A stretch of DNA of 37,012 bases. Origin: Arthrobacter sp. SO3. GTDB lineage: Bacteria > Actinomycetota > Actinomycetes > Actinomycetales > Micrococcaceae. Below, piece after piece: positions 1,018 to 28,860 of this stretch. The notes beneath the pieces were generated by a model. The model was not told the origin of the DNA. It saw only the letters and a list, made by a program, of their open reading frames with translations, and searched no databases. Position numbers and translations under genes: made by a program. The stretch spans positions 17,133-54,144 of the forward strand of contig NZ_MQTS01000238.1 of assembly GCF_020532825.1 (NCBI RefSeq). The letters are read 5' to 3'. Position 1 is the stretch's first letter, and each line of letters opens with the position of its first letter.

Positions 1018-1641
1018 TTGGTTGAGCAGCCTGCCGCCGCGAAGCAGCGCTATGCACTCTCCTTTACTAGCGGAGCCCTCCTCATGCGTGAGGCAGTGAT
1101 CGTTGCGCCCTTATTCCGGCGGGAAGATGACCTTCTCAAAGTTCGAGCGTTGATCGCCGAGGAGAACTTATTGCAGGCCCGCACAGTCGCCTCCGGTTTC
1201 AGGCTTGCGCGGGAAGTTACCCAGCGGCTCGCCGTTCTGACCGGTAACGAGATCGAGCTGTTCATCCAGGCAACGTCAACTGAGCGCGGACACCTGTTAT
1301 GGGCGGCGGCCTGTCGTCGATATGACCTGGTCGGAGAGTTCGCTGAGGAGGTCGTACGCGAGCGGTTCCTCTTGCTTACGCCGACCCTCACACATGAAGA
1401 CTTTGACAGCTTCGTGCGTGCCAAGTCTCTGTGGCACGCCGAGCTGGCTGACCTCAAGGACTCCACTCGGCGGAAGCTACGTTCAAACTTGTTCCGGATG
1501 CTCAATGAGGCGGGCTTGCTTTCTGGTGGGCGCATACAGCAGGCGACGATGTCTCAACGCGTCGCCAACGCCTTGGCGGCGCGTACTCCGAATAACCTGC
1601 GGTTCTTCCCGACCACCAATGCTGCTTCCGGGAGGGCCTAA
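1018..1641 (+). CDS. brxA: BREX protein BrxA (DUF1819 family)
   Basis: A 207-aa protein, the usual BrxA length of about 200 residues. It starts at TTG 1018 behind GAAAGG. The N-terminal YALSFTSGALLMREAV segment and the run of basic helices to the end fit the DUF1819 family, a small all-helical DNA-binding component of BREX type 1 systems. It is followed after two bases by brxB and sits first among the core BREX genes, the canonical position. No enzymatic motif is expected or seen. Identification rests on sequence character plus position in the complete brxA-brxB-brxC-pglX-pglZ-brxL order. Confidence 0.9.
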   Translation: MVEQPAAAKQRYALSFTSGALLMREAVIVAPLFRREDDLLKVRALIAEENLLQARTVASGFRLAREVTQRLAVLTGNEIELFIQATSTERGHLLWAAACRRYDLVGEFAEEVVRERFLLLTPTLTHEDFDSFVRAKSLWHAELADLKDSTRRKLRSNLFRMLNEAGLLSGGRIQQATMSQRVANALAARTPNNLRFFPTTNAASGRA

Positions 1642-1643
1642 AA

Positions 1644-2243
1644 GTGACACGGACCGCGCTATCAAGTCAGGAAGAGCACCTGTTCGCTGTTCTCAGTGGC
1701 AGACGATTTCTCCAGATGGAAGGCCTGAGCAACGAGGTGCCGTTCTTCATCTACCCCTACGACCCCGAGCATGCACTCGCGGTCACAGAGTCGAAGAAGC
1801 GCATCAAGAACCGGCTGGCGAACAAGGGCGTCGTCGTCCGAGAGGTCAACCTCTACGACCTGTCAGTAGAGATTCTCAAGGAACGCGGTGTCTGGGATCG
1901 GCTGATCGCGCTCGAACCCGAGCAGGACAAGGCAGATTTCCGGGAGTTGCTCCAAGGGATGCTCGACCCGCAGCTCCACATCGCATCCGCGATCCGAGCC
2001 CAGCTCGCCGAAAATAACTTCGATATCTTCTTCCTCACCGGCATCGGCGAGGTCTTCCCGTATATCCGTTCGCACAACGTGCTGCACAACTTGCAGAGCG
2101 TCGTGACTGATAGGCCGATGCTCATGTTTTTCCCCGGCCGCTACGAGCAGTCCGACACGCTGGGGTCATCGCTCGTGCTGTTCGGGCGACTCAAAGACGA
2201 CCAGTATTACCGAGCCAAGAACATCTTGGAACAGGAGGCTTGA
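1644..2243 (+). CDS. brxB: BREX protein BrxB (DUF1788 family)
   Basis: A 199-aa protein starting at GTG 1644, just after the brxA stop, with GGGAGGG upstream inside the end of brxA. The central pattern of a hydrophobic strand (IFFLTGIGEVFPYIRSH), then PMLMFFPG and a final DQYYRAKNI, is characteristic of DUF1788. BrxB is required in BREX type 1 systems, but its biochemical role is not settled. The stop lies four bases before the brxC ATG, with the brxC ribosome binding site AGGAGG inside the end of brxB, so the two are translationally linked. Confidence 0.9.
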   Translation: MTRTALSSQEEHLFAVLSGRRFLQMEGLSNEVPFFIYPYDPEHALAVTESKKRIKNRLANKGVVVREVNLYDLSVEILKERGVWDRLIALEPEQDKADFRELLQGMLDPQLHIASAIRAQLAENNFDIFFLTGIGEVFPYIRSHNVLHNLQSVVTDRPMLMFFPGRYEQSDTLGSSLVLFGRLKDDQYYRAKNILEQEA

Positions 2244-2247
2244 CACG

Positions 2248-5200
2248 ATGAATCTGAACCAGATCTTCGCTAAAGACGTTCAGCGCCCGATAGAGGGCGT
2301 CATCAAGGCAGACGACACGGCGCACCTGGGCACCGAGGTCGACGAGTACGTGTTGACCAACGAAGCGGCCAAGGGCATGGAGCAGTTGCTTGAGGCATAC
2401 ACGGACTACACCAACGCGAACGGCGTCTGGATCTCTGGCTTCTTCGGTTCCGGTAAGTCCCACTTGCTGAAGCTGCTCGCGCACCTCCTCGGCGACGTGG
2501 ACGGCCAGGCGTTCCCGCGAGAGCGCGTGTCCGAGAGCTTCCGGTCCAAGGCGCAGGATGAGTTCCTACCGGCACTGCTGACTCAGGCTGAGCGAATCCC
2601 GGCAAAGAGCCTGCTGTTCAACATCGATCAGAAGGCCACACTCATCACGAAGGACCAGACCGACGCCTTGCTGAAGGTGTTCGTCAAGGTCTTCGACGAA
2701 AGCCGCGGCTACTTCGGCAATCAGGGGCACGTCGCCCGGTTCGAGCGCGATCTGGACAACCGCGGCCAGTACGAGGCGTTCCAGGCGGCATACTCCCGCA
2801 TCTCCGGACGCAACTGGGCACAAGGCCGGGAGGAAGGCGTGCTCGAAGAGGTCAACGTGGCAAAGGCGTACGCCGAGGTCAGTGGTCAGACCGAGGGCAC
2901 ACCGACTAACATCCTCACCAAGTACCGCAACGAGTACAAGGTTTCGATCGAGGACTTCGCCGACGAAGTGAAGGCGTGGCTCGACAAACAGGAAAACGGC
3001 TTCCGGCTGAACTTCTTTGTCGATGAGGTCGGCCAGTTCATCGGATCGAACACACACTTGATGCTCAATCTCCAGACGATCGCCGAGTCGCTGAACACCA
3101 AGTGCCAGGGCCGTGCGTGGGTGTTCGTGACCTCGCAGGAGGACATGGACAAGGTCGTTGGCGACCGCACCAAGCAGCAAGGCAACGACTTCTCCAAGAT
3201 TCAGGCCCGGTTCGCCACCCGAGTGAAGCTCACCAGCGCCGATGTGGAGGAGGTCATCCGCAAGCGCCTGCTGGAGAAGAACGAGGCGGGCGAGGCGGCG
3301 CTCACCGGGATCTACGCCGAGCAGCACGCGAACTTCAAGACCCTGTTTGACTTCGTGGACGGCGCGAAGACTTATCGCAATTACACCGACGAGGCGCACT
3401 TCGTCGGCACTTACCCGTTCGTTAGTTACCAGTTCCCGCTTTTCCAGGCCGCGATCGAGGGTATCTCCGACCACAATGTGTTCGAGGGCCGCAACAGCTC
3501 AGTCGGTGAACGGTCGATGCTCGGCGTCGTGCAGCAGGTCGCCAAGGGGATCGGTGACGTCGAAGTGGGCAGGCTCGCGACGTTCGATCACATGTTCGCA
3601 GGCATCCGGGCCTCGCTGAAGTCCGCGGCGCAGCGATCGATCGATGTGGCTGAGCGCAACCTGGACAACTCGCTGGCCGTGCGGCTACTCAAGGCCCTGT
3701 TCCTCGTGAAGTACGTCGAGGGCTTCCATGCCACCACGCGCAACCTGGCCGTGCTGGTATATGACCGTTTCGGGCTGGACCTTCCCGCGCTATCCAAGCA
3801 GGTGCAGGAGGCCCTGACACTGCTCGAGACGCAGACTTACGTGCAGCGCAACGGCAACCTCTACGAGTACTTGACCAACGAAGAGCAGGTCATCGAGGAG
3901 GAGATCAAAAACGTCGATATCGACGCCTCGGAGGTCAGTGGTCGGCTGTTCAAGATCGTCTCCGGCGACATCGTCCGCACGAGCAAGTTGCGGTACGCCA
4001 AGAACGGGCAGGACTTCGCTTTCGGGTACAAGCTTGACGATCAGGTGTACGGGCAGCAACGCGAACTGACCGTGCACTTCATTACCCCGGAATACCCGTT
4101 CGGCCCTGAAGAGACCAGGATGCACAGCGCGGGCAAGGACGAGCTGCGCGTCATCTTGGAGCCCGATGAGCGTGCCCTTTCGGACCTGCGCCTGCTGATC
4201 AAGACCGAGAAGTACACCAAGCGCAAGCAGACGACTTCGTTGTCGGCGATCGAGGACCAGATCCTGCGCTCGAAGGCGACGCAGAACGTCGAGCGCGAGA
4301 AGGAACTCATCGAGCGCATCCGCCGGGCCCTTGGCAAGTCGGACCTCGTGATCAACGCCGCCGACGTAGCCGCCTCCTCGCAGGACGCCCTCGCGCGCGT
4401 GACCGACGGCTTCCAGGACCTCATCAGCCGCACTTACACCCAGCTCAGCCTGCTCGGTGGGTCTACCTTTAGCGAACAGCAAGTTGCTGCCTTTGCCAAC
4501 CCCCAGTCAGGCATGATCGACGATTCGTCGCTGTCGTTGCTGGCTGTTCCAGGTGACGAGGTGCTCTCGTTCGTGCTGCAACGCGACCGGCTCGGCGAGC
4601 AGATAACGGTCAAGACGATCGTGGATGCATTCCAGGCCAAGCCCTACGGATGGGATCTCGCCTCGATCGAGGTCGTCATCGCCTGGCTCATCGGCAATTC
4701 GAAGATCACGGTCACCGTCGATGGAAACATACTCAAGCGCACCGAGGTCCCCGCGATACTGCGCAATACGCAAAAGCACTCGCACGCGGTGCTCTCCCCG
4801 CAAAAGCTCTTCGACGAGCGCAGGGTCGCGACATTCCGCAAGTTCTGCACAGACTTCTTCGACGAGACAACCGCACCAAAGGACCCACTGGAGCTGGCCC
4901 GCCACGGCAACGACCGGCTGGGGGCAAAGCTCGGTGAGCTGAAGGCGCGGGTGAGCGGGTCGAAGTACCCGTTCGTGGAGCAGTTGGCCGCCCCCATCGC
5001 CCTGCTCGAGCGGGCCGTGGGCAAGCCCGATGAGTGGTATCTGACCGAGTTCAGTCTCGGCGACGAGCTGCTCGACGCCAAAGAGAACGTGATCGACCCG
5101 ATCCAGTCGTTCCTCGGCGGCGGGCAGAAGGTCATCTATGACGAGGCTGTCGCGCTGCTCGTCGCAAACACTAACAACCTCGGCTACCTGCCCCCAGGAA

Positions 5201-5733
5201 GCGACGCTGACGCCGTCAAGCGGATGCTGGACGACGCGAATGCCTTCCGCGGTAACCGCATGACTCAGCTCAAGCAGGCCACAAACGCATTGGCAGCGCA
5301 GATCGACGACGAGCTCTCCACCAACCGCAACGTTGTCATCGAAATCATCGAAGGACGCAAGACCGAGGTACTCGACAGCGCCTACTACAAAGATGCCACC
5401 GAGGAAGCACAACAGCGGGTGACCCTTACGATCGATCAGATCGTCGCCCGCGTAGGCAATGAACTGCAGATTGCGCTCATCCGCGAGCAGGGCAACAGCT
5501 TCGAAGAAAAAACCTACCCCTCGCTGCTCGACCAGCTTGCATCCTCTACCCGGCCCACGGACGGCACAGACAGATCTGGACCGGTGCTTCGGCAGACTAT
5601 CTCGGTTAGGACAATCACCGTGCCCGGTGCCCACGGTGTGCTAGAGAACACCGAGGATGTAGACCGCTACCTTGATGCACTCCGCCGCGCGCTGCTGAAC
5701 TCGCTCACCGACGGAAAGCGAATCGCACTCTGA
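2248..5733 (+). CDS. brxC: BREX ATPase BrxC (PglY/BrxC family)
   Basis: An 1161-aa P-loop ATPase, normal length for BrxC (about 1200 aa). A Walker A motif GFFGSGKSHLLKLL is at residues about 64-77, after a short N-terminal segment. A probable Walker B strand (LNFFVDEVGQF) lies near residue 255. The rest is a long helical scaffold typical of the family. BrxC is the large ATPase of the BREX complex and is needed for both host methylation and phage restriction. Strong ribosome binding site AGGAGG nine bases before ATG 2248. The stop TGA overlaps the pglX ATG by one base (TGATG). Confidence 0.95.
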   Translation: MNLNQIFAKDVQRPIEGVIKADDTAHLGTEVDEYVLTNEAAKGMEQLLEAYTDYTNANGVWISGFFGSGKSHLLKLLAHLLGDVDGQAFPRERVSESFRSKAQDEFLPALLTQAERIPAKSLLFNIDQKATLITKDQTDALLKVFVKVFDESRGYFGNQGHVARFERDLDNRGQYEAFQAAYSRISGRNWAQGREEGVLEEVNVAKAYAEVSGQTEGTPTNILTKYRNEYKVSIEDFADEVKAWLDKQENGFRLNFFVDEVGQFIGSNTHLMLNLQTIAESLNTKCQGRAWVFVTSQEDMDKVVGDRTKQQGNDFSKIQARFATRVKLTSADVEEVIRKRLLEKNEAGEAALTGIYAEQHANFKTLFDFVDGAKTYRNYTDEAHFVGTYPFVSYQFPLFQAAIEGISDHNVFEGRNSSVGERSMLGVVQQVAKGIGDVEVGRLATFDHMFAGIRASLKSAAQRSIDVAERNLDNSLAVRLLKALFLVKYVEGFHATTRNLAVLVYDRFGLDLPALSKQVQEALTLLETQTYVQRNGNLYEYLTNEEQVIEEEIKNVDIDASEVSGRLFKIVSGDIVRTSKLRYAKNGQDFAFGYKLDDQVYGQQRELTVHFITPEYPFGPEETRMHSAGKDELRVILEPDERALSDLRLLIKTEKYTKRKQTTSLSAIEDQILRSKATQNVEREKELIERIRRALGKSDLVINAADVAASSQDALARVTDGFQDLISRTYTQLSLLGGSTFSEQQVAAFANPQSGMIDDSSLSLLAVPGDEVLSFVLQRDRLGEQITVKTIVDAFQAKPYGWDLASIEVVIAWLIGNSKITVTVDGNILKRTEVPAILRNTQKHSHAVLSPQKLFDERRVATFRKFCTDFFDETTAPKDPLELARHGNDRLGAKLGELKARVSGSKYPFVEQLAAPIALLERAVGKPDEWYLTEFSLGDELLDAKENVIDPIQSFLGGGQKVIYDEAVALLVANTNNLGYLPPGSDADAVKRMLDDANAFRGNRMTQLKQATNALAAQIDDELSTNRNVVIEIIEGRKTEVLDSAYYKDATEEAQQRVTLTIDQIVARVGNELQIALIREQGNSFEEKTYPSLLDQLASSTRPTDGTDRSGPVLRQTISVRTITVPGAHGVLENTEDVDRYLDALRRALLNSLTDGKRIAL

Positions 5734-8700
5734 TGGAAACCACAGCGCTGAGGTTATTCGCCGCCTGGGCTCGCACCGCACTCATCCGCGAGGTGTCAGC
5801 CCGCATCTCCGTCGTCCTAGCGTCGCAAGAGCTGCGCCAGGAGCAGCCCAACGCCGTCGGCGCGCTGGAGAAAGCCGTCACTGGCGCCGGCGACCAGGGC
5901 CGCGACACCGTAGCCGAGAGAGTTGCCTACACGTGGTTCAACCGCATCATCGCGCTGCGGTTCATGGATGCCAACGGCTACACCGGCATCGGTGTCGTCT
6001 CGCCCGAACGGGGCCGCGAGGGAGGGCAGCCCGAGCTTCTCGCCGAGGCCAAGCGCGGGAACATCGACAGCGCCGTCGTCACGAACAAGCGCACGGTGGA
6101 AAGCGTCACGAGCCTGCTCAACGGCACGCGCCGCAGCGATGACCCGCAGGGCGAGGCGTACGCGCTGCTCCTCGCGGAGTACTGCCGCCATTGGAACGGC
6201 TCGTTGCCGTTCATGTTCGAACGTGAGGGCGACTATACCGAACTGCTCATCCCGGCGAACCTGCTCGCCGACGGCTCCATGCTGACTCGTGCTGTGAGTG
6301 TGCTCACCGAGGAGGTCTGCCAGGACGTTGAAGTCATCGGCTGGCTGTACCAGTTCTACATCTCGGAGCGGAAAGAGGAGATTTTCGCCGGATTCAAGAA
6401 GAACAAGAAGGCCGGCGCCGCCGAGATCCCCGCCGCCACCCAGCTCTTCACCCCCCACTGGATCGTCCGCTACCTCGTCGAGAACTCCCTCGGACGGCTC
6501 TGGATGCTCAACCGGCCCATGTCCCGCCTGGTCGACCAGATGGACTACTACATCGCCCCGGTCGCCGAGGAGACCGACTTCCTGAAGATCAACAGCCCCG
6601 AGGAGCTCAAGGTCATCGACCCCGCATGCGGCTCCGGTCACATGCTCACCTACGCCTTCGACCTCCTGTACGCCATCTACGCGGAAGAGGGCTACGCACC
6701 AGCCGATATTCCCGGCCTCATCCTCACCCATAACCTCTACGGCACCGAGATCGACCCCCGAGCCGGCGCCCTGGCTGCATTCGCCCTCACCATGAAAGCG
6801 CGAGCTCGCCAGCGCACATTGTTCACCAAAAAGGTCGAGCCGAACGTCTGCGTGCTGGAACCGATCTCCTTCACGCCGCAGGAGCTTGACTTCCTGCTCA
6901 CCTCTGGCGGCGATCGCCACGCCGAGACTTCGTTCTGGAATCAGTTCGAGCACGCCGACACCTTTGGCGCACTTATCGTTTCTCCTACCGACGTCCTCCC
7001 GAGGATTCTGACGGCTCACCTCGAGGACGTCCGCGCTGGCGCCTATGATCTATTGACCTTAGACGTAATTCAGCGTGCGAATGCGGTGCTCGATCAGGCG
7101 GGGTATCTCACACGACGCTACAACGTTGTCGTGGCAAACCCGCCCTATATGGGCACTGGAAACATGGGCGCTGAGTTGACTAGCTGGGTGGTTGCGAACT
7201 ACCCGGTAGAGCGTCAGGATTTGTACGCCTGTTTTTTGAACGTTGCGAAGCGAATCTCCCTGCCTCGAGGCGTGATCGCGATGATCGTAGGCGACACCTG
7301 GTTGGCTCTTCCGAGTTTTGAGGGCTTCCGCGAGGAGCTGCTCGGCACGACTCGGCTAGAGAGCCTCGTTCACCTTGATGACGTCTCGAATCACCCCGAC
7401 ATCTTCGGTGCCAACACCGCGTTCATCATGACCGTCGGATTGCGAAGTGACCAACGTTGCCGGTTCATCGCGCTAGAGGACAACAGCGCCGACCAGAAGG
7501 ACGAGAAGCTGCAGCTTGCGGCCTCGGGCCATGAGCACAAATGGGTACACGAGATTCGCCCGACTGAATTCGCGAACGTTCCCGGAAGCATATTTGCGTA
7601 CAAGCTGACCGATGAAGAATTCGAGGCATTCGAATCTGGTGTGAGGCTCGGCGATATCGTCGAACTCCGGGAAGGCATCAATACTGGAGAAAATGAGCGC
7701 TTTCTCCGTCGATGGTGGGAAGTCGCATACAGCCGCACTTCCATCACTGAGCGCAGTTCGTCGCTCCCCTCGCAGAAGTGGGTGCCGCACAAGAAGGGAG
7801 GCGCGTATCGGAAGTGGGCGGGTAACGATGAGTTCGTCGTCAACTGGCTTAACAACGGTGCCGAGATTCGCGCATCGCCGCGTGCGAGACCCCAAAACAC
7901 CCAATACTTCTTCCGGCGCTCGGTGTCGTGGAGTCGGATCTCTTCTGGGGAATTCTCGCTTCGCTACTACGACAACGGATACGCGTTTGACTCCACCGGA
8001 CCGTCGGGCTTCGGCGCTGATCACGACTTGGAGCTCTCTCTCGCGTTCCTTAATAGCAATCTCGCTAAGCGGTTCCTCGCCGCTCTGAGCCCGACGCTTG
8101 ACTACCGGCTGCGGAATATGGGTAACCTGCCAGGTCCCCGCGATCGTGAAGGTCTGAATCTGAGTCATGTCGAGGAGCTGGTGTCAACGGCACAACGGGA
8201 CTGGGACGAGCACGAGACCGCGCCGGGTTACACGCGAAGTCCGCTCATACTGGCCGGGAAGCGCAGCATCCGCGAAGCATGGGATTCGCTCTCAAAGGAC
8301 TGGTCGGCCCGAGTCGCCCGCACCGTTGAGCTTGAGTCGGTTAACAACGCGGTCATGGCCGACGCTTACGGTCTGCATCACGTTGATACTGCCGCGAACC
8401 AGCAGCGCGTATCGCTCTGGTGCAACCCCGACTTCGCGCTCGCCCAGATCGGTGCCGGCCGGCGCGAGGAGGCCTTCTTGCAGGCCTCAGTTGCGGAGTT
8501 CGTTTCCTATGCCGTCGGCTGCATGTTCGGTCGTTTCAGCCTTGACGAGCCGGGTCTCCTCCTTGCGGATCAAGGCGGCACTTTGCAGGACTACCTCGTC
8601 AAGGTTCCGGTCCCGACGTACATGCCGGATGCCGACAACGTCATACCGATCGTCGATGGCGATTGGTTCGAGGACGACATCGTCGCCAGGTTCCGGCAGT

Positions 8701-9215
8701 TCCTGCGCGTGGCCTTCGGCGAGCAGCAACTCGAAGAGAACCTTCGGTTCGTCACCGAGGCACTTGGCGTGAAGGATATGCGCGACTACTTCCTGAAATC
8801 CTTCTACAAGGACCACGTGCAACGGTACAAGAAGCGTCCTATCTACTGGCTGTTCTCCAGTTCGAAGGGCTCGTTCAGCGCGCTGATCTACATTCACCGC
8901 TACACGCCGTCGACGGTCTCGACAGTGCTGAACGAGTATCTGCGCGAGTTCAAGGCAAAGTTGGAAGCCAGCCGCCAGCACCACGAGCGCCTCACCGCCG
9001 GAAGCGGCACACCACGCGAGAAGGCTGCCGCGCAGAAGGAAGTCGACCGTCTGCGCAAGGTGCTGCTCGAACTCGACGAGTACGAACACGACGTCCTGTA
9101 CCCGCTGGCGACCCAGCAGGTACAGATCGACCTCGATGACGGTGTGAAGGTGAACTACCCGAAGTTCGGTACTGCGCTGAAGAAGATTCCCGGGCTGGAG
9201 GCAAACGATGAGTGA
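5733..9215 (+). CDS. pglX: BREX adenine-N6 DNA methyltransferase PglX
   Basis: An 1160-aa class I methyltransferase. S-adenosylmethionine-binding motif I, DPACGSGHML, starts near residue 294. The catalytic motif IV, NPPY, starts near residue 469 and marks an N6-adenine enzyme. The C-terminal half after about residue 620 should carry the target recognition region. PglX marks host DNA at a non-palindromic site so that BREX can tell it from phage DNA. Length is normal. It starts at ATG overlapping the brxC stop, with only a weak ribosome binding site, so translational coupling is likely. From about 7000 to 8150 the wobble bases become visibly more mixed than in the flanks, suggesting an exchanged specificity segment. 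Confidence 0.95.
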   Translation: METTALRLFAAWARTALIREVSARISVVLASQELRQEQPNAVGALEKAVTGAGDQGRDTVAERVAYTWFNRIIALRFMDANGYTGIGVVSPERGREGGQPELLAEAKRGNIDSAVVTNKRTVESVTSLLNGTRRSDDPQGEAYALLLAEYCRHWNGSLPFMFEREGDYTELLIPANLLADGSMLTRAVSVLTEEVCQDVEVIGWLYQFYISERKEEIFAGFKKNKKAGAAEIPAATQLFTPHWIVRYLVENSLGRLWMLNRPMSRLVDQMDYYIAPVAEETDFLKINSPEELKVIDPACGSGHMLTYAFDLLYAIYAEEGYAPADIPGLILTHNLYGTEIDPRAGALAAFALTMKARARQRTLFTKKVEPNVCVLEPISFTPQELDFLLTSGGDRHAETSFWNQFEHADTFGALIVSPTDVLPRILTAHLEDVRAGAYDLLTLDVIQRANAVLDQAGYLTRRYNVVVANPPYMGTGNMGAELTSWVVANYPVERQDLYACFLNVAKRISLPRGVIAMIVGDTWLALPSFEGFREELLGTTRLESLVHLDDVSNHPDIFGANTAFIMTVGLRSDQRCRFIALEDNSADQKDEKLQLAASGHEHKWVHEIRPTEFANVPGSIFAYKLTDEEFEAFESGVRLGDIVELREGINTGENERFLRRWWEVAYSRTSITERSSSLPSQKWVPHKKGGAYRKWAGNDEFVVNWLNNGAEIRASPRARPQNTQYFFRRSVSWSRISSGEFSLRYYDNGYAFDSTGPSGFGADHDLELSLAFLNSNLAKRFLAALSPTLDYRLRNMGNLPGPRDREGLNLSHVEELVSTAQRDWDEHETAPGYTRSPLILAGKRSIREAWDSLSKDWSARVARTVELESVNNAVMADAYGLHHVDTAANQQRVSLWCNPDFALAQIGAGRREEAFLQASVAEFVSYAVGCMFGRFSLDEPGLLLADQGGTLQDYLVKVPVPTYMPDADNVIPIVDGDWFEDDIVARFRQFLRVAFGEQQLEENLRFVTEALGVKDMRDYFLKSFYKDHVQRYKKRPIYWLFSSSKGSFSALIYIHRYTPSTVSTVLNEYLREFKAKLEASRQHHERLTAGSGTPREKAAAQKEVDRLRKVLLELDEYEHDVLYPLATQQVQIDLDDGVKVNYPKFGTALKKIPGLEANDE

Positions 9216-11703
9216 GACGGCCGCTATCCGACCACACCTTGAACGTCGTTTCGAAACACAGCGGGTGGTGTTCTGGCATGATCCCGAGGGTGAGTACGAC
9301 GCCGACCTTGACACGCTAGGCCTGGAAGGCGTTCAGACTGTTCGTGTTTCCAACGACGAGTATGCGATCAAATACCGGTTGCTGCACCAAGAACCCAGGG
9401 CCAAGTTCCTTGTCTACCGCTCCGGTGCCGTGCCGACAGGGATAGGCAACTGGCTGCTTGATCTGGAGCTGGCCTACGGCATATTCACCGCGGACCGAAC
9501 CTCGCTAGTGCAGCAGGAACTCGGGCTCACGGCCGCCGGTATCGGCGATGTCGTGCTGGCCCGTGAGAACTTCTTCCGCTTGGTCAAGCGCGTCCAGGGC
9601 CTGAAGAAGCTACTCGACGCTGACGATGACGCCCTGCTGCTGCAAGCCAAGATGTCGGCCGTTCTGCTCGGTCAAAGCGAGCACAGCTTGCTGGAGATCA
9701 CGCGCACCCTGCTGATCGAGAACGCCGGCGGCATGGATCTCAAGTACGGTGCTCTCGCCGAGCACGGCCTCGACGAGTTCTACTGGCAAGGCGTGGCGTC
9801 GATCTACGGCTATAGGTCGCCGAACCCCAGCATCGCCGATCTCGTGCTGTGGGTGTTCCGGCAGGCCAACGCCGGATTCAAGTCCGAACGACCCGGCGGC
9901 TTGCGCAACATCCAGCTTGATTTCGGGAGCTTTCGCAACGACCGGCGCAGCCAAGAGGCATTGACGACGCTCGCAAGGCGCGCAGCGCGAGACTTGGACT
10001 ACGCCAGCACCATCGAGGACGCAAGCTTCCGCGACCTCGTAGGAAACGACCTGTTCGAGGAAGCTGACCGCAAAATCATCAGCGACCTGGCGCGCGCGGT
10101 CGCAGAGCGAACCGTTACCCCCCGCGAGGTCACCGAGATCATCCGCAGCCGCCAAAGCAGCATCTGGGTCGACGGGTATCGCAAGCTGTACGCAGCGATC
10201 GGCTGCGCCTCCGACCTTCTGACCGCGCTCAGCACGCTCGACCTGGCGATGCAGTCCTTCGACGAAGGATTGGGGCGATATCAGAGTGACTGGTTCCGGA
10301 TCGACCAGCTCTACCGGCAGTTCACATACGCAGCCCGCACTGCCGAGTTCACCGGCCCGCTGGAGGCGCTGCGCGCCCAGGTGGAGAAGTTCTACGCGAA
10401 CAAGTTCCTCTACGACCTGGGCAACGCCTGGCAGCAGCAGGTCGATGGCATCGAACGGTGGCGTTCCGCCGCGCTCCGACCACAAACCTCTTTCTACACC
10501 GACCACGTCGTACCCATCACGAAGGATGGCCGGCGCAAGGCCGTCGTTATCGTCTCGGATGCCCTGCGGTATGAGATCGCCGACGAACTCGGCTCACGCA
10601 TCCGTCAGGAAGACCGTTACGACGCGGACCTGAAGGCCATGCTCGGCGTGCTACCCAGCTACACCCAGCTCGGCATGGCCGCGTTGCTGCCACACAGCTC
10701 GATCGGACACTCCCAGGACGGCGATCCCGTCCTGGTCGACGGCCAGCGCACGGACGGCACCGTGAACCGTAGCAAGGTTCTCGATGCCGTGGAGGGGAAG
10801 GCGATCCAGGCTGAGGATGTTTTCTCTCTTACCCGAGACGAACTGCGGGAGCTGTACCAGGAGCACCAAGTTCTGTATGTCTACCACAACCGCATTGACG
10901 CGACTGGGGACAAGGCAGGCACGGAGCGCCAGGTCTTCGAGGCAGCCGAGGACACGCTTCGCGAGCTTGTCGATCTGGTTAAGCGACTGACGAACGCGAA
11001 CGCGACGAACATCCTCATCACAGCCGACCACGGCTTCCTGTTCCAGGACACGGCGCTCAAGGACGCCTTCTACCTGTCGACCCTGCCGCAAGGTGACGAT
11101 ATTAAGGTGACCAACCGTCGTTACGTCCTCGGTCGCGGCTTGAAGGAAGACCCCGCTTTCAAGACCTTCACATCAGCTCAGCTCGGCCTCGACAGCGACC
11201 TGGACGTGCAGATACCAAAGTCGATTCACAGGCTGCGGCTGCCCGGGGCCGGCTCGCGTTTCGTCCACGGCGGTGCGGCCCTGCAGGAGGTCGTCGTCCC
11301 AGTGCTCGCGATCAACAAGAAGCGTAAGAGCGACGTGCGAACGGTCAACGTCAAGATCATGCCCGAGTCGGACAAGATCACCACAGGCCAGCTGGTCATC
11401 AAACTGTTCCAGGTTGAGCCCGTGAGTGAGAAGATTCACCCTCTTGTGCTGCGCGCAGGGCTATACGTCGGCGAGACCCTCATCTCGAACCATCTCGCCC
11501 TCACGTTCGACCAAGACTCGGCTGACCAGCGTGAGCGCTACCAGAACGCGCACATGCTACTCAGCCAGGACGCGAACGACTACAACAACCGCCCGGTGGA
11601 GTTCCGGCTCGAAGAACTCATCCCGGGCACGAATCAGTGGCGCATCTACGGTAAGGCGATCTACACGCTGAAGCGGTCCTTCGCCTCGGACTTCGACTTC
11701 TAA
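9208..11703 (+). CDS. pglZ: BREX phosphatase-fold protein PglZ (BREX-1 type)
   Basis: An 831-aa PglZ-domain protein of the alkaline phosphatase superfamily. The metal-site patterns are VVIVSDALRYE near residue 446 and ITADHGFLF near residue 603, both expected for this fold. The N-terminal RRFETQRVVFWHDPEGEY segment is typical of type 1 PglZ. PglZ is a core BREX component present in all BREX types; proposed roles include metal-dependent nuclease or phosphatase action within the complex. The ATG lies eight bases inside the pglX end, with GGAGG seven bases upstream, so the genes are coupled. The 13-base gap to brxL is the largest after brxA. Confidence 0.95.
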   Translation: MSETAAIRPHLERRFETQRVVFWHDPEGEYDADLDTLGLEGVQTVRVSNDEYAIKYRLLHQEPRAKFLVYRSGAVPTGIGNWLLDLELAYGIFTADRTSLVQQELGLTAAGIGDVVLARENFFRLVKRVQGLKKLLDADDDALLLQAKMSAVLLGQSEHSLLEITRTLLIENAGGMDLKYGALAEHGLDEFYWQGVASIYGYRSPNPSIADLVLWVFRQANAGFKSERPGGLRNIQLDFGSFRNDRRSQEALTTLARRAARDLDYASTIEDASFRDLVGNDLFEEADRKIISDLARAVAERTVTPREVTEIIRSRQSSIWVDGYRKLYAAIGCASDLLTALSTLDLAMQSFDEGLGRYQSDWFRIDQLYRQFTYAARTAEFTGPLEALRAQVEKFYANKFLYDLGNAWQQQVDGIERWRSAALRPQTSFYTDHVVPITKDGRRKAVVIVSDALRYEIADELGSRIRQEDRYDADLKAMLGVLPSYTQLGMAALLPHSSIGHSQDGDPVLVDGQRTDGTVNRSKVLDAVEGKAIQAEDVFSLTRDELRELYQEHQVLYVYHNRIDATGDKAGTERQVFEAAEDTLRELVDLVKRLTNANATNILITADHGFLFQDTALKDAFYLSTLPQGDDIKVTNRRYVLGRGLKEDPAFKTFTSAQLGLDSDLDVQIPKSIHRLRLPGAGSRFVHGGAALQEVVVPVLAINKKRKSDVRTVNVKIMPESDKITTGQLVIKLFQVEPVSEKIHPLVLRAGLYVGETLISNHLALTFDQDSADQRERYQNAHMLLSQDANDYNNRPVEFRLEELIPGTNQWRIYGKAIYTLKRSFASDFDF

Positions 11704-11716
11704 GGAGAGCGCACCC

Positions 11717-13861
11717 ATGAACGAAGAAAGCGAAGTCAGCCAGGAAGTACCCGCTGGGGCCAGCGCGTCGGCACAGGCTACTCCGGCGCTGAGCGAGCTG
11801 GACCGCAAGATCAACAAGTTCTTCCCGGGCGTGGTTGTCCGCAAGGACTTGGTGAAGGCCGTCAAGGGCAACGCCATCGTTCCCTCCTACGTGCTGGAAT
11901 ACCTGCTCGGCCAGTACGCGGCCTCCGACGACGAGGCCACCATCCAGGCGGGCATCGACACGGTGCGTAAAATTCTCGCCGAGCACTACGTGAACCGGAA
12001 CCAGTCCGAACTGGTGAAGTCCACGATCAAGGAGCGCGGGCGCCACCGCATCATTGACAAAGTGACCGCCACGCTCAACGAGAAGGATGACGTTTACCAG
12101 GCCGAGTTCGCCAACCTCGGCATCAAGGGCGTGCTCGTCGAGTCCGCCACGATCAAGGCCCACCCAAAGCTGCTCGTCGGCGGCGTGTGGTGCATCTGCG
12201 ATGTCGAGTACTTCCACAGCGACGACGCCCGCGTGGTGCCGTGGATACTCGGGTCGATTAAGCCCATCCAGTTGTCGAAGTTTGACTTCGAGGCCTATCT
12301 AGCGGCGCGGGGCGAGTTCACAACCGGCGAGTGGACCGACCTGCTCGTGCAGTCGATCGGGTTCAACCCCGGGCTATTCGGACGCCGCGCCAAGCTCATC
12401 CAGCTCGTTCGGCTCATCCCCTTTGTCGAGCGCAACTACAACCTCGTCGAACTCGGCCCCAAGGGCACCGGCAAGTCGCACATCTTCTCGGAATTCTCAC
12501 CCCACGGCATGCTCATCTCCGGTGGCGAGGTCACCGTCCCGAAGCTGTTCGTCAACAACTCCAACGGCCGCATCGGTCTGGTCGGCTACTGGGACGTCGT
12601 CGCTTTCGACGAGTTCGCGGGTAAGAAAAAGCGCACCGACAAGGCACTCGTCGACATCATGAAGAATTACATGGCGAACAAGTCGTTTTCCCGCGGCGTC
12701 GAGACCCTTGGTGCGGAGGCGTCAATGGTGTTCGTCGGCAACACCTCGCACACCGTGCCCTACATGCTCAAGCACTCCGACCTGTTCGACGAGCTGCCCG
12801 AGAGCTACCACGATTCGGCCTACCTCGACCGACTGCATCACTACATCCCGGGCTGGGAGGTTGACACCATCCGAAATGAGATGTTCTCCAACGGGTACGG
12901 GTTTGTTGTTGACTACATTGCCGAAGTGCTCAAATCGATGCGCTCAGCGGACTACTCCGACCGCTACCAGCAGCACTTCACGCTGTCATCGGATATCTCG
13001 ACCCGAGACCGCGACGGCATCCACAAGACCTTCTCCGGCCTGATGAAAATCCTCTACCCGCATGGGGAAGCCTCCTCCGAAGAGATTGAGGAAATCCTTC
13101 AGTTCGCCATCGAGGGCCGCAAGCGTGTCAAAGACCAGATCCTACGCATTGACTCGACCATGGGCCACGTCAAGTTCGGCTACCTCGACATGGCCGGTAC
13201 ATGGCACCCTGTCTCTACCCTCGAAGAGGATGAGTACCCGGAATACTACTACCGCGAAGACAGCGGGGCTGCTGAGGCAAAGGACGTAACGGGCGGTCCG
13301 CCTGCGGCCGGTTTCGTGGCTACTACTGAAGGCGGGCAACCGACTCCGGTGGAGTCGATCACCGAGAAACTGCTGTTCGAAGGTCACCGGGAGTTCCAGG
13401 AGAACCAGAGGGGAATTTCGTTCGACACCCTCCTCGCCCCGTACCTACGTGGAGCCACGCAGATCACGATAATTGACCCATACATCCGGCAGTTCCATCA
13501 GGCCCGCAACCTCATGGAAGTCATCGAGTGCATCGCGGCCACCAAGGAGGCTGCCGACGAAGTGAGTGTAAAGCTCATCACGTCAGAGAACACCGAAGGA
13601 GAGGACAAGCTCCGGAAGCAGTTCGAGCTGTTGCTGAAGGTGAAGCAAGGAGCGTCCGTCGGCGGCATCGACGTCGACGTCATCTTCGACGGCAGCCTTC
13701 ATGATCGGTCTATCCTCACCGACACGGGATGGAGGATCCTTCTCGGTCGCGGGTTGGACATCTTCCAGCACGTCACCGGCGACGCCTTTGATCTCGCAAG
13801 TAGGCTCCAGGAGTTCCGTCAGGTGAAGGCGTTCGGAGTGACCTATATCCGGGAGATTTAG
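11717..13861 (+). CDS. brxL: BrxL-type AAA+ ATPase with an MITD1 C-terminal-like domain in place of the Lon domain
   Basis: A 714-aa protein with GGAGAG before ATG 11717. Residues about 20-505 match the BrxL core: Walker A GPKGTGKSHIF near 248, Walker B VVAFDEFAG near 293, and GNTSHTVPYML after it. Canonical BrxL (about 680 aa) ends in a Lon-like domain. Here a Pro/Gly/Thr linker (about 520-545) is followed by a region with ITIIDPYIRQFHQARNL, SLHDRSI and GRGLDIFQ, which closely follows the MIT_C (phospholipase-D-like) domain of MITD1. No Ser-Lys Lon dyad region was recognised. It occupies the normal last position of the BREX-1 operon. The ATPase should act in phage restriction; the role of the tail is unknown. 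Confidence 0.9.
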   Translation: MNEESEVSQEVPAGASASAQATPALSELDRKINKFFPGVVVRKDLVKAVKGNAIVPSYVLEYLLGQYAASDDEATIQAGIDTVRKILAEHYVNRNQSELVKSTIKERGRHRIIDKVTATLNEKDDVYQAEFANLGIKGVLVESATIKAHPKLLVGGVWCICDVEYFHSDDARVVPWILGSIKPIQLSKFDFEAYLAARGEFTTGEWTDLLVQSIGFNPGLFGRRAKLIQLVRLIPFVERNYNLVELGPKGTGKSHIFSEFSPHGMLISGGEVTVPKLFVNNSNGRIGLVGYWDVVAFDEFAGKKKRTDKALVDIMKNYMANKSFSRGVETLGAEASMVFVGNTSHTVPYMLKHSDLFDELPESYHDSAYLDRLHHYIPGWEVDTIRNEMFSNGYGFVVDYIAEVLKSMRSADYSDRYQQHFTLSSDISTRDRDGIHKTFSGLMKILYPHGEASSEEIEEILQFAIEGRKRVKDQILRIDSTMGHVKFGYLDMAGTWHPVSTLEEDEYPEYYYREDSGAAEAKDVTGGPPAAGFVATTEGGQPTPVESITEKLLFEGHREFQENQRGISFDTLLAPYLRGATQITIIDPYIRQFHQARNLMEVIECIAATKEAADEVSVKLITSENTEGEDKLRKQFELLLKVKQGASVGGIDVDVIFDGSLHDRSILTDTGWRILLGRGLDIFQHVTGDAFDLASRLQEFRQVKAFGVTYIREI

Positions 13862-15540: not shown

Positions 15541-18500
15541 TTAGTAATCGCGGATGCCGCGGACAGCCGCCCGTCGTGCCTTGACCAGGGCTTCTTTGAG
15601 CAACGGCTCGTAGACTTCTACGCCGCGTCGACCCAGGCGGGCGATGTCCTCGTCGTCGGAGACGGTGAGGTTTCGAAGAGTGTCGACTTTGGCTGCGTAT
15701 CGTTCGTGGTCCTCGCCGGAGAAAGATCCGACTTCAAGGGTGTTGAGGAGGTCGTCGGACTCGGGGTTGAGGGGCCGGAGCATGGTTGCGAGGGTGTCGA
15801 GTGGATAGCGGTGTCCGAATTGGAACTGGAGTGCGCCAAGGAGGTCACGGACGGAGATGCTGAAAGAAGGTTCGCTGACCGTTGCGGTGATCCAGTCGGT
15901 GTCCTTGCCTGCGATGACCCAGAAGAGTTCGGAGGCTAGTTCGGTGTCTCTGACTTGCTGCCAGAGCTTCTTCCGTTCGGGCGAGGCGAGGAGCTGGACC
16001 GGCTCGTTCCATTCGTCGAGGTCTCGGTAGCTACTGCGCATCGTGGTCGTGGCGTGCTTGGTGAAGACTTCGATGAAGACCTCTGGTGATGCTTTTGCGA
16101 GTGCAGTGAGCGCTTGGGTGTGGATATGGTCGTGTCTGCTGGTCTCAGGGACGGTGTAGGACTTCATGGCGTCGAGCCAGTCCGGGTCATCCGGCGTGGG
16201 GTCGTTGTCGTAGGCCCATTCGGCGACCCAAAGTGCTGCCGCGGTTCCGCGGACTTCAGGGTTTGGGTGAGTGAACAGCGCGTGCCTGGTTGGGTCGGGG
16301 GCGTGTTTCAGTGCAAATGCTGACTCGAGTTTTTGGACGTCACGGGGGGCAAGTTGGTCGACGACCCTTTGAATAAGGGACGAGTTCGTTGATTGGCCGA
16401 TGATGGCGCTGATGACGCGGTGTCGGCCTTTAGGATCGGCAAGTAGTCGGTCGGCGATCTCGGGGGTGAGTTGGTCCGTGCGGGCGCATAAGTCGATAAG
16501 CGCTGAAGCTGATCCTGCAAGGCCGTGGTCGATAGCTGCGGTGAGCCATTTGGTTGGTTCCGGGTCCGGCTGGTACGCGAGACGTGCGAAAACCTGCCAG
16601 GTTCCTGTGGTCGTTTGGCCGGCGGTCGCGAGCTCGGGGTCGTGGGCTTTCAGCCACTCCATCAGGGCTTCAGGTGCTTGTTGCTGGAATGGAGCGAGAG
16701 CTTTGTCGAGTGCGGCTTCTTTGCGGCGCCTGATTTCGTCGTAGGCGGTCAGGTGTTCGCGTTCGTGTGTAATGGCTGCGAACAGCTTGTCTGGTTCATC
16801 GAGCCGGATCTTGAGGGTGCTTGCTGCTTTGTTGAACCGGGCTCGTACGCCGGGGGTGCTGATGACCGGGGCGAGGGTGTTCGCAATGTTCTTCGCGATG
16901 CGTTTCCCGGCGCACACCTGGGCGTTGGTGGTCTTACCGCCGAATGGGAGGGCCCATCCATTCGCGATCCGCACCCATTTTTCGAGCAGGTCGATCAGTG
17001 TGAGTTGGGCGGTGGGCCTTAGCCCGGGGGTGCGAGTTGTAAGTGCCGGCTGATTGGCGTCGTACAGCGTTTCCATGTGAGTGGCGGCCCATGTGAACGA
17101 CTGCAGGATGAACTGGTTCAGGACCTCGGGGTTCATGTAGTTGCCGTCGAACGTCGGCGAGAGGATTTCGCAGGTGAGCGCTGCCCAGACGGTGTCGATG
17201 AGGTCGGCGTCGGGCACGGTCCGGACTGCCTCGACGAGTTTCAAGAGACCGGCGAGCTGGGGTTGGTCGCCACTGCGCGTGTCGCGGACTTCGTCGACGA
17301 GCTCCTTGACCGCCGGCTTGATGTCGCATCCTGCGTCTTCAAGGACGGAGATCGCTTTGACGAAGGTGCCAACGACGCCGGGGAGATAGCCGTCTACTGC
17401 ATCTGCGACGCGTGCGGCTAAAAGCTTAGCTTCGCTCTCGGCAGTCGTGGGATCCCCGGCATCGAGCGCTGTAGTTACGCGGGCTAGGTGTATGTCGACG
17501 ACGGCTTGCGCTTGTTCGGGGCCGAGTTGGCCGAAGCTTCGTAGCAGTTCGACGTCCTTCCTGGCGTCGGGCAGCACAGCGATTAGTTCGCCGGTAGTCG
17601 GAACTCTTGGGTGCGTTGCGCCGAGGAGTTTCGTATAGACCTGGGTCTGCATGATGTCGGCAGCGAGTTCAGGGAATGTGTCTTGGATGTCGCGCAGTCG
17701 GACAGGTGAGGCGGCGCCGGAAAAGTAGACCTCGGATGCGACGGCGGCAGCGATGATGTTCGGTTGGACACGGTAGGTCTGGGTGTGCTCGATCTGTTGG
17801 ATCTGATGGTTGTAGTACTTGTGGTTCTGGACGTCAACGAGGCCGGCGATCGCGACGGATCGAATGAGCCGGATGAGTTCGGGCTGGCGGATCTGTAGGA
17901 GGTCGGCCAGGCGACGCAGCTGGTCGTCGTTGACCTGGCCGAGGAGTGCCAGGGTGCCGAGCACGTCGACTGCGTCTTCCGACGTGTTGGACATGCGTAG
18001 GAAGGCGAATATATGGTCTCGCAGCGCGTTGCCGGTCCATACGGACTTCCAGTCACTTTCGTGAATGAGGAGGTCGGCAAGGTTCAGCGCCCAGGCTGGG
18101 CGGCCGGCAGCTTGTGTGAGGAGGTGCACGATCACTGAAAGCCGGGTGATGCCGCGTTCGCGGAGCATCGCTCCGAGCTCTTCGCGGGTAAGGAGGTCGA
18201 CCTCGAGCTGGAGCGAGTTTGGCAGGTGGTCTGCGATCCGGTCCCTTTCGTGTGGCCAGCACGTTGCGATGATGCGGTAGTTGAGCTCCTCCGCGTTGCG
18301 CAGTTGTAGGAGCAGGTCGACGTCTTGGAGTCGCGCGCCGGAGTCGTCGACCACCACCAGCGCGGGCTTAGCTTCGATGAGGTCATCGAGAAGTCGTTCG
18401 GGCGTGGGTTGCCGTTCGAGGAACAGGGCACCGTCAAGTTTGCTGGCTACGTGGCTCTTTCCGACGCCTGGAACTCCGAACAGGATCACGTCGGAGTCGG

Positions 18501-19047
18501 ACTCGTTCACTTCGGCGATGTGGGCGTCACGTCCGATGGTCGAAAGTTGTTGTTCGTCGGGGCGTGCTCCGCGCGGTTGACGCGAGAAGCTGAACGGTCC
18601 GCCTTCGATGTGGAGAATCTTGCGTCGCCAGACGGGGTTCTCGCGGAATTGGTTCGCGAACCATGCTCGGTCGTAGACCTGCACGAGTTCGCAATCGAAC
18701 TCCTTCGCGATGTCTCTGAGCTTCTCGCGCTTCGATCTGTTCGCTTCGGCGAGATTGACCGCGACGACACGCTGGACGGGGACGTGATTCTTGCGCACCG
18801 ACCGCAGGCTGTCTCGCAGGCTCCGCTTCGCGCCATCCCAACTCCGCGAGGACGTGATGATGAGACCGGTGATCCGCGAATCCTCAGTGATTTCTGCGTC
18901 AAGACCGAAGTCGGAGCCTCCGACGATGGGCACGAGTGCGGGGTGGACAGGACTGAGCAAGGAGGTCGCACAGTCTTCGAAATCGTGCGGGTTGATCCGC
19001 GCACGCATATCGGAAAGGCGTTGGTCGATGCGGTCGAGCAAGTTCAC
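15541..19047 (-). CDS. STAND-type NTPase with restriction-endonuclease-like N-terminus (Avs-like layout)
   Basis: About 1168 aa when started at GTG 19047, which has GAGG eight bases upstream; the frame stays open to 19158, with another possible ATG at 19074. The N-terminus has DFEDCATSLL, then GGSDFGLDAEI and IITSSR, matching the Mrr/REase-like fold core, though the usual Lys after the second strand is replaced by TSSR. A P-loop GVPGVGKSHVASKL and Walker B ALVVVDDSG follow, then winged-helix-like and long alpha-helical repeat regions to the C-terminus. This effector-NTPase-sensor order is that of antiviral STAND proteins, which bind a phage protein and activate the effector. The role here is inferred. 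It is divergent from the HEPN gene. Confidence 0.85.
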   Translation of the reverse strand: MNLLDRIDQRLSDMRARINPHDFEDCATSLLSPVHPALVPIVGGSDFGLDAEITEDSRITGLIITSSRSWDGAKRSLRDSLRSVRKNHVPVQRVVAVNLAEANRSKREKLRDIAKEFDCELVQVYDRAWFANQFRENPVWRRKILHIEGGPFSFSRQPRGARPDEQQLSTIGRDAHIAEVNESDSDVILFGVPGVGKSHVASKLDGALFLERQPTPERLLDDLIEAKPALVVVDDSGARLQDVDLLLQLRNAEELNYRIIATCWPHERDRIADHLPNSLQLEVDLLTREELGAMLRERGITRLSVIVHLLTQAAGRPAWALNLADLLIHESDWKSVWTGNALRDHIFAFLRMSNTSEDAVDVLGTLALLGQVNDDQLRRLADLLQIRQPELIRLIRSVAIAGLVDVQNHKYYNHQIQQIEHTQTYRVQPNIIAAAVASEVYFSGAASPVRLRDIQDTFPELAADIMQTQVYTKLLGATHPRVPTTGELIAVLPDARKDVELLRSFGQLGPEQAQAVVDIHLARVTTALDAGDPTTAESEAKLLAARVADAVDGYLPGVVGTFVKAISVLEDAGCDIKPAVKELVDEVRDTRSGDQPQLAGLLKLVEAVRTVPDADLIDTVWAALTCEILSPTFDGNYMNPEVLNQFILQSFTWAATHMETLYDANQPALTTRTPGLRPTAQLTLIDLLEKWVRIANGWALPFGGKTTNAQVCAGKRIAKNIANTLAPVISTPGVRARFNKAASTLKIRLDEPDKLFAAITHEREHLTAYDEIRRRKEAALDKALAPFQQQAPEALMEWLKAHDPELATAGQTTTGTWQVFARLAYQPDPEPTKWLTAAIDHGLAGSASALIDLCARTDQLTPEIADRLLADPKGRHRVISAIIGQSTNSSLIQRVVDQLAPRDVQKLESAFALKHAPDPTRHALFTHPNPEVRGTAAALWVAEWAYDNDPTPDDPDWLDAMKSYTVPETSRHDHIHTQALTALAKASPEVFIEVFTKHATTTMRSSYRDLDEWNEPVQLLASPERKKLWQQVRDTELASELFWVIAGKDTDWITATVSEPSFSISVRDLLGALQFQFGHRYPLDTLATMLRPLNPESDDLLNTLEVGSFSGEDHERYAAKVDTLRNLTVSDDEDIARLGRRGVEVYEPLLKEALVKARRAAVRGIRDY

Positions 19048-19302
19048 CTCAACCACCTCAGCGCTGACCTGCATCCGGACTTGTTGACGGGCCCCATGGA
19101 GCGAGTTTATGCGCGAGCGGCGACATCGCCACATCCACCTCTTATGGCTGAGCAACATGCACTGCCGTCAGATGGAAGAGCGGATCCTCTCGGGCAGGAT
19201 GACCATGGACGGTGACAGTTCATGTGTGGCCTAGAGTATCCGGAGCGGATGCCGGAGGACCTGCGCGGAAGCCCACTCCCAAAGTAGTCGAGAAGAGGAA
19301 AC
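19048..19302. promoter_or_regulatory. Divergent promoter region between STAND and HEPN genes
   Basis: About 255 bases shared by two divergently transcribed genes. The right side has a TAGAGT hexamer (19232-19237, TAnnnT type) below a TGACAG (19213-19218), but the 13-base spacing is short, so the promoter is only a candidate. CCGGAG occurs twice (19240-19245 and about 19253). The ribosome binding site AGAGGAA lies just before GTG 19303. Confidence 0.3.
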
Positions 19303-22561: not shown

Positions 22562-23467
22562 CTAGGCTGATTCCGGAGAACCGTCATTCAGCGCCTCATC
22601 CTCGAGCTGCTGGAAGGTCCGGCCCGTGGCAGTCTTCCAGGTAATCCTTCCGTTGATGCTGCCGCCTAAAACCACCGCGCCAGCGGTGCTAGGACTGCTG
22701 AACAGCTGGTCCTTAACGAAGACGTAATCGTTACCGCGAATATCGACCACGCCCTGCTCAACTAGGTCAAGGCGCCGGCGCAGGAGAGAAGCTGGCAGCG
22801 AGGGGCGAGCCACAGCCTTGCCCGCCGACCCGGCGAGAACAAGGAGACCTTCCGTAGTTGGCCTTGCTCGGGCTTCAGTCCCGCCTTCCCGGAAGATCAG
22901 CGTCTCGGCCGCATCGTTGCCGCCGCCGCTGGGGCCGGCCAACCGGATCTCCCGGACAGGCTCAAGAATTGGGTAGCCGAGGGTTGTTAGGAGGACGGAG
23001 ATGGTCTCCAGATACTCGCGGCAGTCCGATTCGAGAGGCGCCGGCGTATGCGGGTTTGAGGCGTCATTGGCGTTGTGCAGTTCGTAGCGCCCGGCTTCCG
23101 TGGCCCTTCTTATGGCTTGCCATTCCATGTATCCCGTGTGTGTGTTCGTCCAGGCATTGGTGAGAGACACAGCAACCAGGGCGTGGTCCCAAAAGTCCTT
23201 TTTGTCCGAGTGCTGCTTTAGCCTATCGCCGATGTTTCCGCTCTGGCCTATGTAGCCGGACGGCCTGCCCGAGGGCGATGATCCAAACAGGAAGTAGACG
23301 CCCACCTGCTTGGATTCAGGCATTTCCCGGAAATCGCGGAGCAGAGGGCGCGGCACCTCGAATACGCGCACCGTTCGCGTGGTGATCTCAGCCATGCGGA
23401 TGCCGGCAGGGTCACCCTGCGGCAGATAGATCTGAATTGTCTGGGGTAGCGCCCTATTCCGAAGCAT
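22562..23467 (-). CDS. GIY-YIG nuclease family protein with DUF4357-like C-terminus
   Basis: A 301-aa protein with GAAGGA seven bases before ATG 23467. A short N-terminal domain leads to a GIY-YIG domain: GVY (56-58), GYIG (71-74), R82, H86 and the likely catalytic E115. The C-terminus (VFVKDQLFSSPSTAGAVVLG, then ITWKTATGRTFQQLEDEAL) matches DUF4357, commonly attached to this nuclease type. It should cut DNA, but the biological role of this family is not established; restriction-like or repair functions are possible. It is transcribed away from the large ATPase gene across a 336-base gap. Confidence 0.85.
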   Translation of the reverse strand: MLRNRALPQTIQIYLPQGDPAGIRMAEITTRTVRVFEVPRPLLRDFREMPESKQVGVYFLFGSSPSGRPSGYIGQSGNIGDRLKQHSDKKDFWDHALVAVSLTNAWTNTHTGYMEWQAIRRATEAGRYELHNANDASNPHTPAPLESDCREYLETISVLLTTLGYPILEPVREIRLAGPSGGGNDAAETLIFREGGTEARARPTTEGLLVLAGSAGKAVARPSLPASLLRRRLDLVEQGVVDIRGNDYVFVKDQLFSSPSTAGAVVLGGSINGRITWKTATGRTFQQLEDEALNDGSPESA

Positions 23468-28784: not shown

Positions 28785-28813
28785 CAAATCCCCTTCCAGA
28801 GTGATCCCAGCGT

Positions 28814-28830: not shown

Positions 28831-28860
28831 TTGCTTGTGAAGCTTGTTTCCGTGTCTTCG

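Follow-up and report, generated by a model that had tools for sequence, protein, structure and literature searches.

What is a domain of the human MITD1 type doing at the end of a bacterial phage-defense protein? The question is raised by a 37,012-nucleotide stretch of the Arthrobacter sp. SO3 genome (contig NZ_MQTS01000238.1, positions 17,133 to 54,144; hereafter the window), which holds a type 1 BREX (bacteriophage exclusion) operon with brxL as its last gene. A first-pass annotation made from the sequence had proposed that this BrxL keeps its AAA+ core but ends in the motif spine of an MIT_C domain in place of a recognizable Lon region, and this is confirmed: the window BrxL is a BREX-1 AAA+ protein with an MITD1-type phospholipase D (PLD)-fold domain at the usual position of the Lon-like tail. 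The open reading frame (11717-13861, + strand) is a single uninterrupted frame of 714 amino acids, and signs that the tail might be a separate gene or a frameshift product were looked for and are ruled out by that continuity. In the core, the Walker A (GPKGTGKS, residues 247-254) and Walker B (VVAFDEFAG, residues 294-302) motifs lie within the BrxL_ATPase domain that Pfam places at residues 177-480. The Pfam MIT_C profile (PF16565) matches the tail over its full length (positions 1-142 of 142) and with 127.4 bits (E 4.9e-37), far over its cut-off of 25, which is more than the spine first noticed, namely DPYIR at residues 587-591, HDRSILTD at 662-669 and GRGLD at 677-681. The reverse outcome, a full Lon match and no MIT_C, was checked and the opposite was found, with no Pfam match to Lon_C in the protein up to E 1. 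The model of Lon-form BrxL, TIGR02653, gives 588.2 bits against a cut-off of 628.25 and stops at position 469 of 675, whereas the BrxL model TIGR02688 is well matched (622.5 bits against a curated cut-off of 329.3) and the PADLOC BrxL model PDLC02508 covers residues 26-713 (1133.9 bits). Searched alone against the PDB with phmmer up to E 10, the tail matches only human MITD1 (E 9.2e-16, 61 bits), its nearest solved structure; the full-length profile match and this single-sequence match together rule out a chance likeness of motifs.

The BrxL-MIT_C fusion itself is already known. According to a 2026 paper (PMC12839542), the Lon domain is replaced by an "HKD-endoDNase" in 1030 of 2913 BrxL-bearing type-1 BREX taxa, and the HRD motif of these tails is "likely" still active. 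The same paper credits a 2025 Menshen paper (Li 2025) with an earlier report of the substitution, PMC12715929 lists PF16565, under the title of that family, among BREX genes, and at NCBI some of these proteins already bear the name "MIT C-terminal domain-containing protein". Motif and place suggest that the 2026 set and the PF16565 tails are one set. None of the open-licence texts that we found discusses how the BrxL tail is related to MITD1 or to proteins of dynamin type, and the words MITD1, MIT_C and dynamin were not found in the main text of PMC12839542.

Our own surveys agree that the fusion is common. A scan of species genomes with the window tail gave at least 594 stretches, at least 555 of them relatives, a number that, with the published set, rules out a fusion unique to this locus. 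Among the best 80 loci, which were gathered by likeness to the tail, core and tail of BrxL share one frame in 79 (in 8 of them the core does so only partly; the exception is L077), and at least one further BREX gene is present in 73. BrxL tails were also tallied in two samples of genomes. In the phylum of the window, 20 of 296 genomes have a BrxL match; the tail is MIT_C in 5, Lon_C over the cut-off in 7, Lon-like under the cut-off in 1, SLFN_AlbA_2 in 4 and a protein kinase in 1, with a gene broken by a stop (G216) and a fragment (G247) left unclassified. G206, one of those with an AlbA_2 tail, encodes a further BrxL whose Lon-like tail scores under the cut-offs. The other sample, drawn from the phylum of a Nitrosomonas genome (G297, Pseudomonadota), has BrxL in 11 of 299 genomes, with MIT_C tails in 5 and Lon_C tails in 6, one of the five being the sample centre, which was picked for having MIT_C. 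Pooled, the 31 BrxL-bearing genomes include 14 with Lon-like and 10 with MIT_C tails. An MIT_C domain was looked for in phages as well, and the window tail has no match at E 0.01 in 50,697 records.

If the fusion is known, what does its pocket look like? From 459 MIT_C domains, 417 cover at least 72% of the profile that we built and 396 of these are distinct; setting aside one odd row (L138) leaves 395, comprising 181 tails of the window's type (A), 118 of a second type (B), 3 B-like and 2 divergent ones, 89 rows from a search for dynamin-type proteins, one IF2_N fusion and human MITD1. Fragments are frequent among the A and B rows, and 23 of the 120 B rows listed, out of 1426 proteins found, also carry PF13337. 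The dynamin-type search used the last 258 residues of a 947-amino-acid protein from a Candidatus Thiodictyon plasmid (L142:7628-10471, + strand) with Dynamin_N in front and MIT_C at its end; 83 of the 89 proteins listed (P0124-P0212) carry both domains, and these bacterial dynamin-like GTPases ending in MIT_C are about 945 amino acids long.

The motif histidine is present in all 395 domains, the pocket glutamine and asparagine are likewise invariant, and GLD is found in every one of the 394 rows that have letters at that place. At the position of the catalytic lysine stands arginine in 394 domains and cysteine in one, but lysine in none. The aspartate of the "HRD" motif is kept in 357 and replaced by asparagine, serine or glycine in 38, human MITD1 among them. 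The sole cysteine belongs to the BrxL of a Tenacibaculum plasmid (L160:10444-12450, + strand). The window tail has the PLD fold and carries HxRx4D instead of the HxKx4D of canonical HKD PLDs and nucleases; aligned by eye, a canonical PLD picked up by PF16565 under its cut-off (L087, 21.3 bits) reads HxK...D...GSVN against HxR...D...GRGLD. With lysine wholly absent and the aspartate not invariant, this is no casual substitution: HxR/GRGLD is a fixed variant signature common to BrxL tails and MITD1. The dynamin-type rows also keep the pocket letters, as does MITD1 in nearly the same form. The dynamin-type rows have alanine, serine, threonine or tyrosine for the arginine of DPYIR in 85 of 89 and valine, leucine, isoleucine or threonine for the tryptophan in 88 of 89, so that their ligand may differ.

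Behind the AAA+ core, where the tail is attached, RVK[DEQ]Q is common to 12 of 13 proteins compared across several tail types, with L115 as the exception; beyond it comes a short, like-patterned stretch, after which the tail types diverge. In 104 frames that are not of B type, the core end and the estimated start of MIT_C are separated by 60-100 residues (median 77). The BrxL section of PMC12839542 mentions Lon and HKD tails only. Our sample also holds Schlafen SLFN_AlbA_2 tails (L102, L105, L108 and L116, the junction being compared in three) and a Ser/Thr kinase tail (L114:1444-3912, + strand; Pfam Pkinase E 1.3e-33) that keeps HRDIKPQN but has DFN for the usual DFG. A common junction followed by differing whole domains is consistent with a slot for modules at the back of a ring that loads onto DNA, and if the tail is an effector, a slot that accepts Lon-like, MIT_C, AlbA_2 or kinase domains would turn BrxL into such a ring with effectors that plug in. 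The effector or targeting swap envisaged in the first-pass annotation thus stands insofar as a PLD-fold domain sits at the Lon place and the tail position is exchangeable, but it is widespread and published rather than special to the window.

What, then, might the MIT_C tail do? The conserved PLD-type pocket suggests that the likeliest role is that of a DNA-directed effector, either cutting or gripping. In its specific form, which we advance tentatively and with somewhat less than even confidence, the tail is predicted to nick unmodified phage DNA within the BrxL ring via the variant HxR/GRGLD site. Lon-form BrxL assembles on DNA in an ATP-dependent manner, and its C-terminal domains meet where the chamber is wide, at its equator (PMC10164562). 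By analogy, MIT_C-tailed BrxL would assemble on DNA as well and its tail would lie near the enclosed DNA and reach it; the arginine form of the motif would be catalytic, and unmodified phage DNA would be nicked inside the ring. Should the pocket not be catalytic, a DNA-directed tail would next be expected to serve as a phosphate-gripping DNA clamp.

Several points weigh against such a nicking tail, beginning with the missing lysine and the variable aspartate. We take K898 of PLD1 and K758 of PLD2 to be the HKD lysines. The K898R and K758R proteins serve as inactive mutants (PMC3648575), which speaks against ordinary catalysis by the arginine form. The pocket letters are kept in dynamin-type proteins and in MITD1, whose PLD-fold domain is reported to bind membranes, a property essential for abscission (PMC6015221). 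Moreover, the Lon tail is called inactive and PglZ is a reported BREX nuclease (both PMC12839542), and the 14 Lon-like tails among our 31 genomes imply that BREX works without MIT_C. The invariant histidine, by contrast, speaks for some chemistry. Faced with the same choice, the first-pass annotation had left open a cryptic PLD or nuclease activity and membrane binding; the histidine favors the former, the absence of lysine from all 395 domains does not, and sequence alone cannot separate the two. The choice matters, as the means by which BREX stops phage are still debated and the pocket bears also on MITD1 and the bacterial dynamin-like family.

Were the tail to bind phospholipid, it would probably keep the BrxL ring membrane-bound at the site of phage DNA entry. 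The place of MITD1 as nearest solved structure, the membrane-acting partner family represented by those 83 dynamin-type proteins, and pocket letters that are alike in BrxL tails, dynamin-type proteins and MITD1 all lend something to this tethering role. We nevertheless consider it unlikely, since in loci gathered by likeness to the window tail MIT_C stands behind a DNA ATPase, the dynamin-type rows depart from the BrxL tails at the DPYIR arginine and the tryptophan, and we know of no membrane role for Lon_C, AlbA_2 or kinase tails. A further alternative is a purely structural replacement, in which the tail would only join two rings like the Lon-like domain and the pocket would play no separate part in restriction. 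The C-terminal domain of Lon-form BrxL does make tail-to-tail ring dimers (PMC10164562), the catalytic dyad is missing from the Lon-like tail (PMC12839542), and differing domains do follow one common junction. A spacer, however, needs no invariant histidine, glutamine, asparagine and GLD in hundreds of sequences, nor in dynamin-type proteins; the stretch ahead of MIT_C varies by tens of residues, while the linker of the Lon form spans residues 469-497 (PMC10164562); and kinase and AlbA_2 tails are unlikely to form one common contact. We therefore regard a structural role as rather improbable. The published proposal on 1030 taxa (PMC12839542) is that of an ordinary HKD endoDNase in which arginine stands for lysine and catalysis is canonical, and a PLD fold as in SauUSI and NgoAVII agrees with it. 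Given a pocket that never has lysine and does not always have the aspartate, and the inactivity of the lysine-to-arginine mutants of PLD1 and PLD2 (PMC3648575), we hold ordinary HKD catalysis to be highly improbable.

Of the two tail types, B is the nearer to MITD1. The BrxL proteins with B-type tails (L145 and L161), and the one with a B-like tail (L162), have as neighbor a PglZ closer to BREX-6 PglZ than to type A, all under cut-offs. Against human MITD1 the L145 tail scores 137 bits (E 4.9e-39) and the window tail 61 bits. Median identity to MITD1 is 49% for B (116 rows), 33% for A (161 rows) and 28% for dynamin-type rows (89 rows), A and B tails being 32% identical to each other at the median; when MITD1 is the query, all B rows listed reach at least 117 bits and no A row more than 85. 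Likeness to L145 was the basis on which the B rows were collected, and eukaryotes are represented by one sequence, human MITD1. In a 76-row tree MITD1 groups with the B and B-like tails (support 97/93) on a long end branch, but the approximately unbiased test does not reject a position outside every BrxL tail (p-AU 0.273); with MITD1 so placed, the B and B-like tails make up a branch of their own at 78/76, which is not strong. The BrxL core tree places A and B types apart, so that two changes are needed, although a single clade of MIT_C-bearing cores is not rejected either (p-AU 0.065, long-branched L115 omitted). With one eukaryotic sequence, the direction of transfer is not readable from the trees. 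It is a doubtful idea that the membrane-binding MITD1 domain came from the effector tail of a B-type BrxL, that MIT_C is one family whose HxR/GRGLD phosphodiester chemistry, common to BREX rings, bacterial dynamins and MITD1, has gone unrecognized, and that MITD1 is perhaps a living enzyme instead of an inert membrane binder. The L161 operon lies on a Thioflavicoccus plasmid (24-12507, + strand) and comprises a methyltransferase, a helicase-like protein, a DUF2290 protein, a PglZ nearest BREX-6 and the B-type BrxL.

MIT_C was met in a few further settings. An IF2_N and MIT_C protein on a Paenarthrobacter plasmid (L144:9452-10501, + strand; E 1.5e-30) is one, and the annotation shows no BREX gene within 10 kb of it. 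Two loci from the sample around G296 (Cyanobacteriota), L136:1414-3344 and L137:1396-3314 (both - strand), pair an NsnC-like protein (HDRYLI...GF) with an OLD/DUF3696-like ATPase, for which family scans cover L136; their weak MIT_C matches reach 31.0 and 24.7 bits against the cut-off of 25. The row set aside above (L138, 1-1938, + strand) is a long frame that combines an MrfA Zn-binding domain with an MIT_C-like stretch (LHDRW...GRGFD) matching below threshold. Among low PF16565 scores from other phyla, L140, L141, L153 and L159 resemble ABC-type ATPases, the stretch that matches being similar to "MGDRIVVM", and are probably chance matches; L139 and L154, also low-scoring, are unlikely relatives.

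The operon around brxL is complete: brxA, brxB, brxC, pglX, pglZ and brxL lie intact and in this order on the + strand according to Pfam, NCBIfam and PADLOC, with no internal stop in any of the six, and these matches agree with the initial description of brxL as the last BREX-1 gene (Table 1).

Table 1. Features of the BREX-1 operon and of BrxL (window coordinates).
Feature	Position	Strand	Evidence
brxA	1018..1641	+	Pfam BrxA E 7.6e-50; PADLOC
brxB	1644..2243	+	Pfam BrxB E 7.5e-41; PADLOC
brxC	2248..5733	+	NF033441 BREX_BrxC 1131.9 bits
pglX (brxX), adenine methyltransferase	5733..9215	+	NF033452 BREX_1_MTaseX 1245 bits
pglZ, type A	9208..11703	+	TIGR02687 742.9 bits
brxL with MIT_C tail, 714 amino acids	11717..13861	+	TIGR02688 622.5 bits; PADLOC PDLC02508 1133.9 bits
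BrxL_N domain, residues 35-165	11819..12211	+	Pfam PF20442 E 4.2e-47
BrxL_ATPase AAA+ domain, residues 177-480	12245..13156	+	Pfam PF13337 E 9.6e-128
Walker A	12455-12478	+	
Walker B	12596-12622	+	
Junction after AAA+ core: RKRVKDQ, then VKFGYLD, TLEEDEYPEYY	13118..13249	+	BrxL-MIT_C frames
Variable linker, residues 514-558, rich in Gly, Ala, Glu, Thr, Pro	13256..13390	+	
MIT_C, PLD-fold tail, residues 566-712	13412..13852	+	Pfam PF16565
DPYIR and Q-x-x-N pocket motifs	13469..13510	+	Q and N invariant in 395/395 domains
HxR-x4-D (HDRSILTD), HKD-like, Arg for Lys	13700..13723	+	His 395/395, Arg 394/395
GRGLD, at the place of GSxN in canonical PLDs	13745..13759	+	by-eye comparison with L087

Matches to the PADLOC candidate defense families PDC-S14 (22562-23467, - strand, 341 bits) and PDC-S06 (23804-26575, + strand, 616 bits) point to other likely defense genes nearby. 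A 1205-amino-acid frame (15541-19158, - strand) has no Pfam match to E 0.01 and no PADLOC match to E 0.001. A ParA-like ATPase (27870-28979, - strand) and a protein with weak primase-type matches (29109-30965, - strand) suggest that the window may belong to a plasmid or an integrated element. A BrxL tail 86% identical to that of the window lies on a plasmid of Arthrobacter sp. Rue61a, and the source genome itself carries a second BrxL-MIT_C tail at a contig end (L002, G000:C134) and, on another contig (G000:C236), a BrxL core split over two frames.

How, finally, does the window protein compare with known systems? Lon-form BrxL (PDB 8emc, 8emh) aligns with it through BrxL_N and the AAA+ core (residues 26-492), and the two part at the tail, which is Lon-like in the one and MIT_C in the other. 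Among PLD-fold restriction enzymes, the families of SauUSI, the NgoAVII R protein and BfiI have the canonical HKD motif; the window tail matches them only weakly and has HxR. The Menshen NsnC-like proteins of L136 and L137 share an MIT_C-like match and HDR...GF beside an OLD-like ATPase, at low scores that make the kinship tentative. Human MITD1 (PDB 4a5z, 2ymb), closer to the B-type tails than to the window's A-type tail, has its own N-terminal MIT domain and ESCRT-III partners (PMC9477494), whereas no MIT domain appears among the Pfam matches of the window BrxL up to E 1. The closest likeness is to the "HKD-endoDNase" BrxL (PMC12839542; PDLC02508), which has the same architecture and HRD motif; where that paper sees a motif that is likely active, our counts show a fixed HxR/GRGLD signature that these tails have in common with MITD1.
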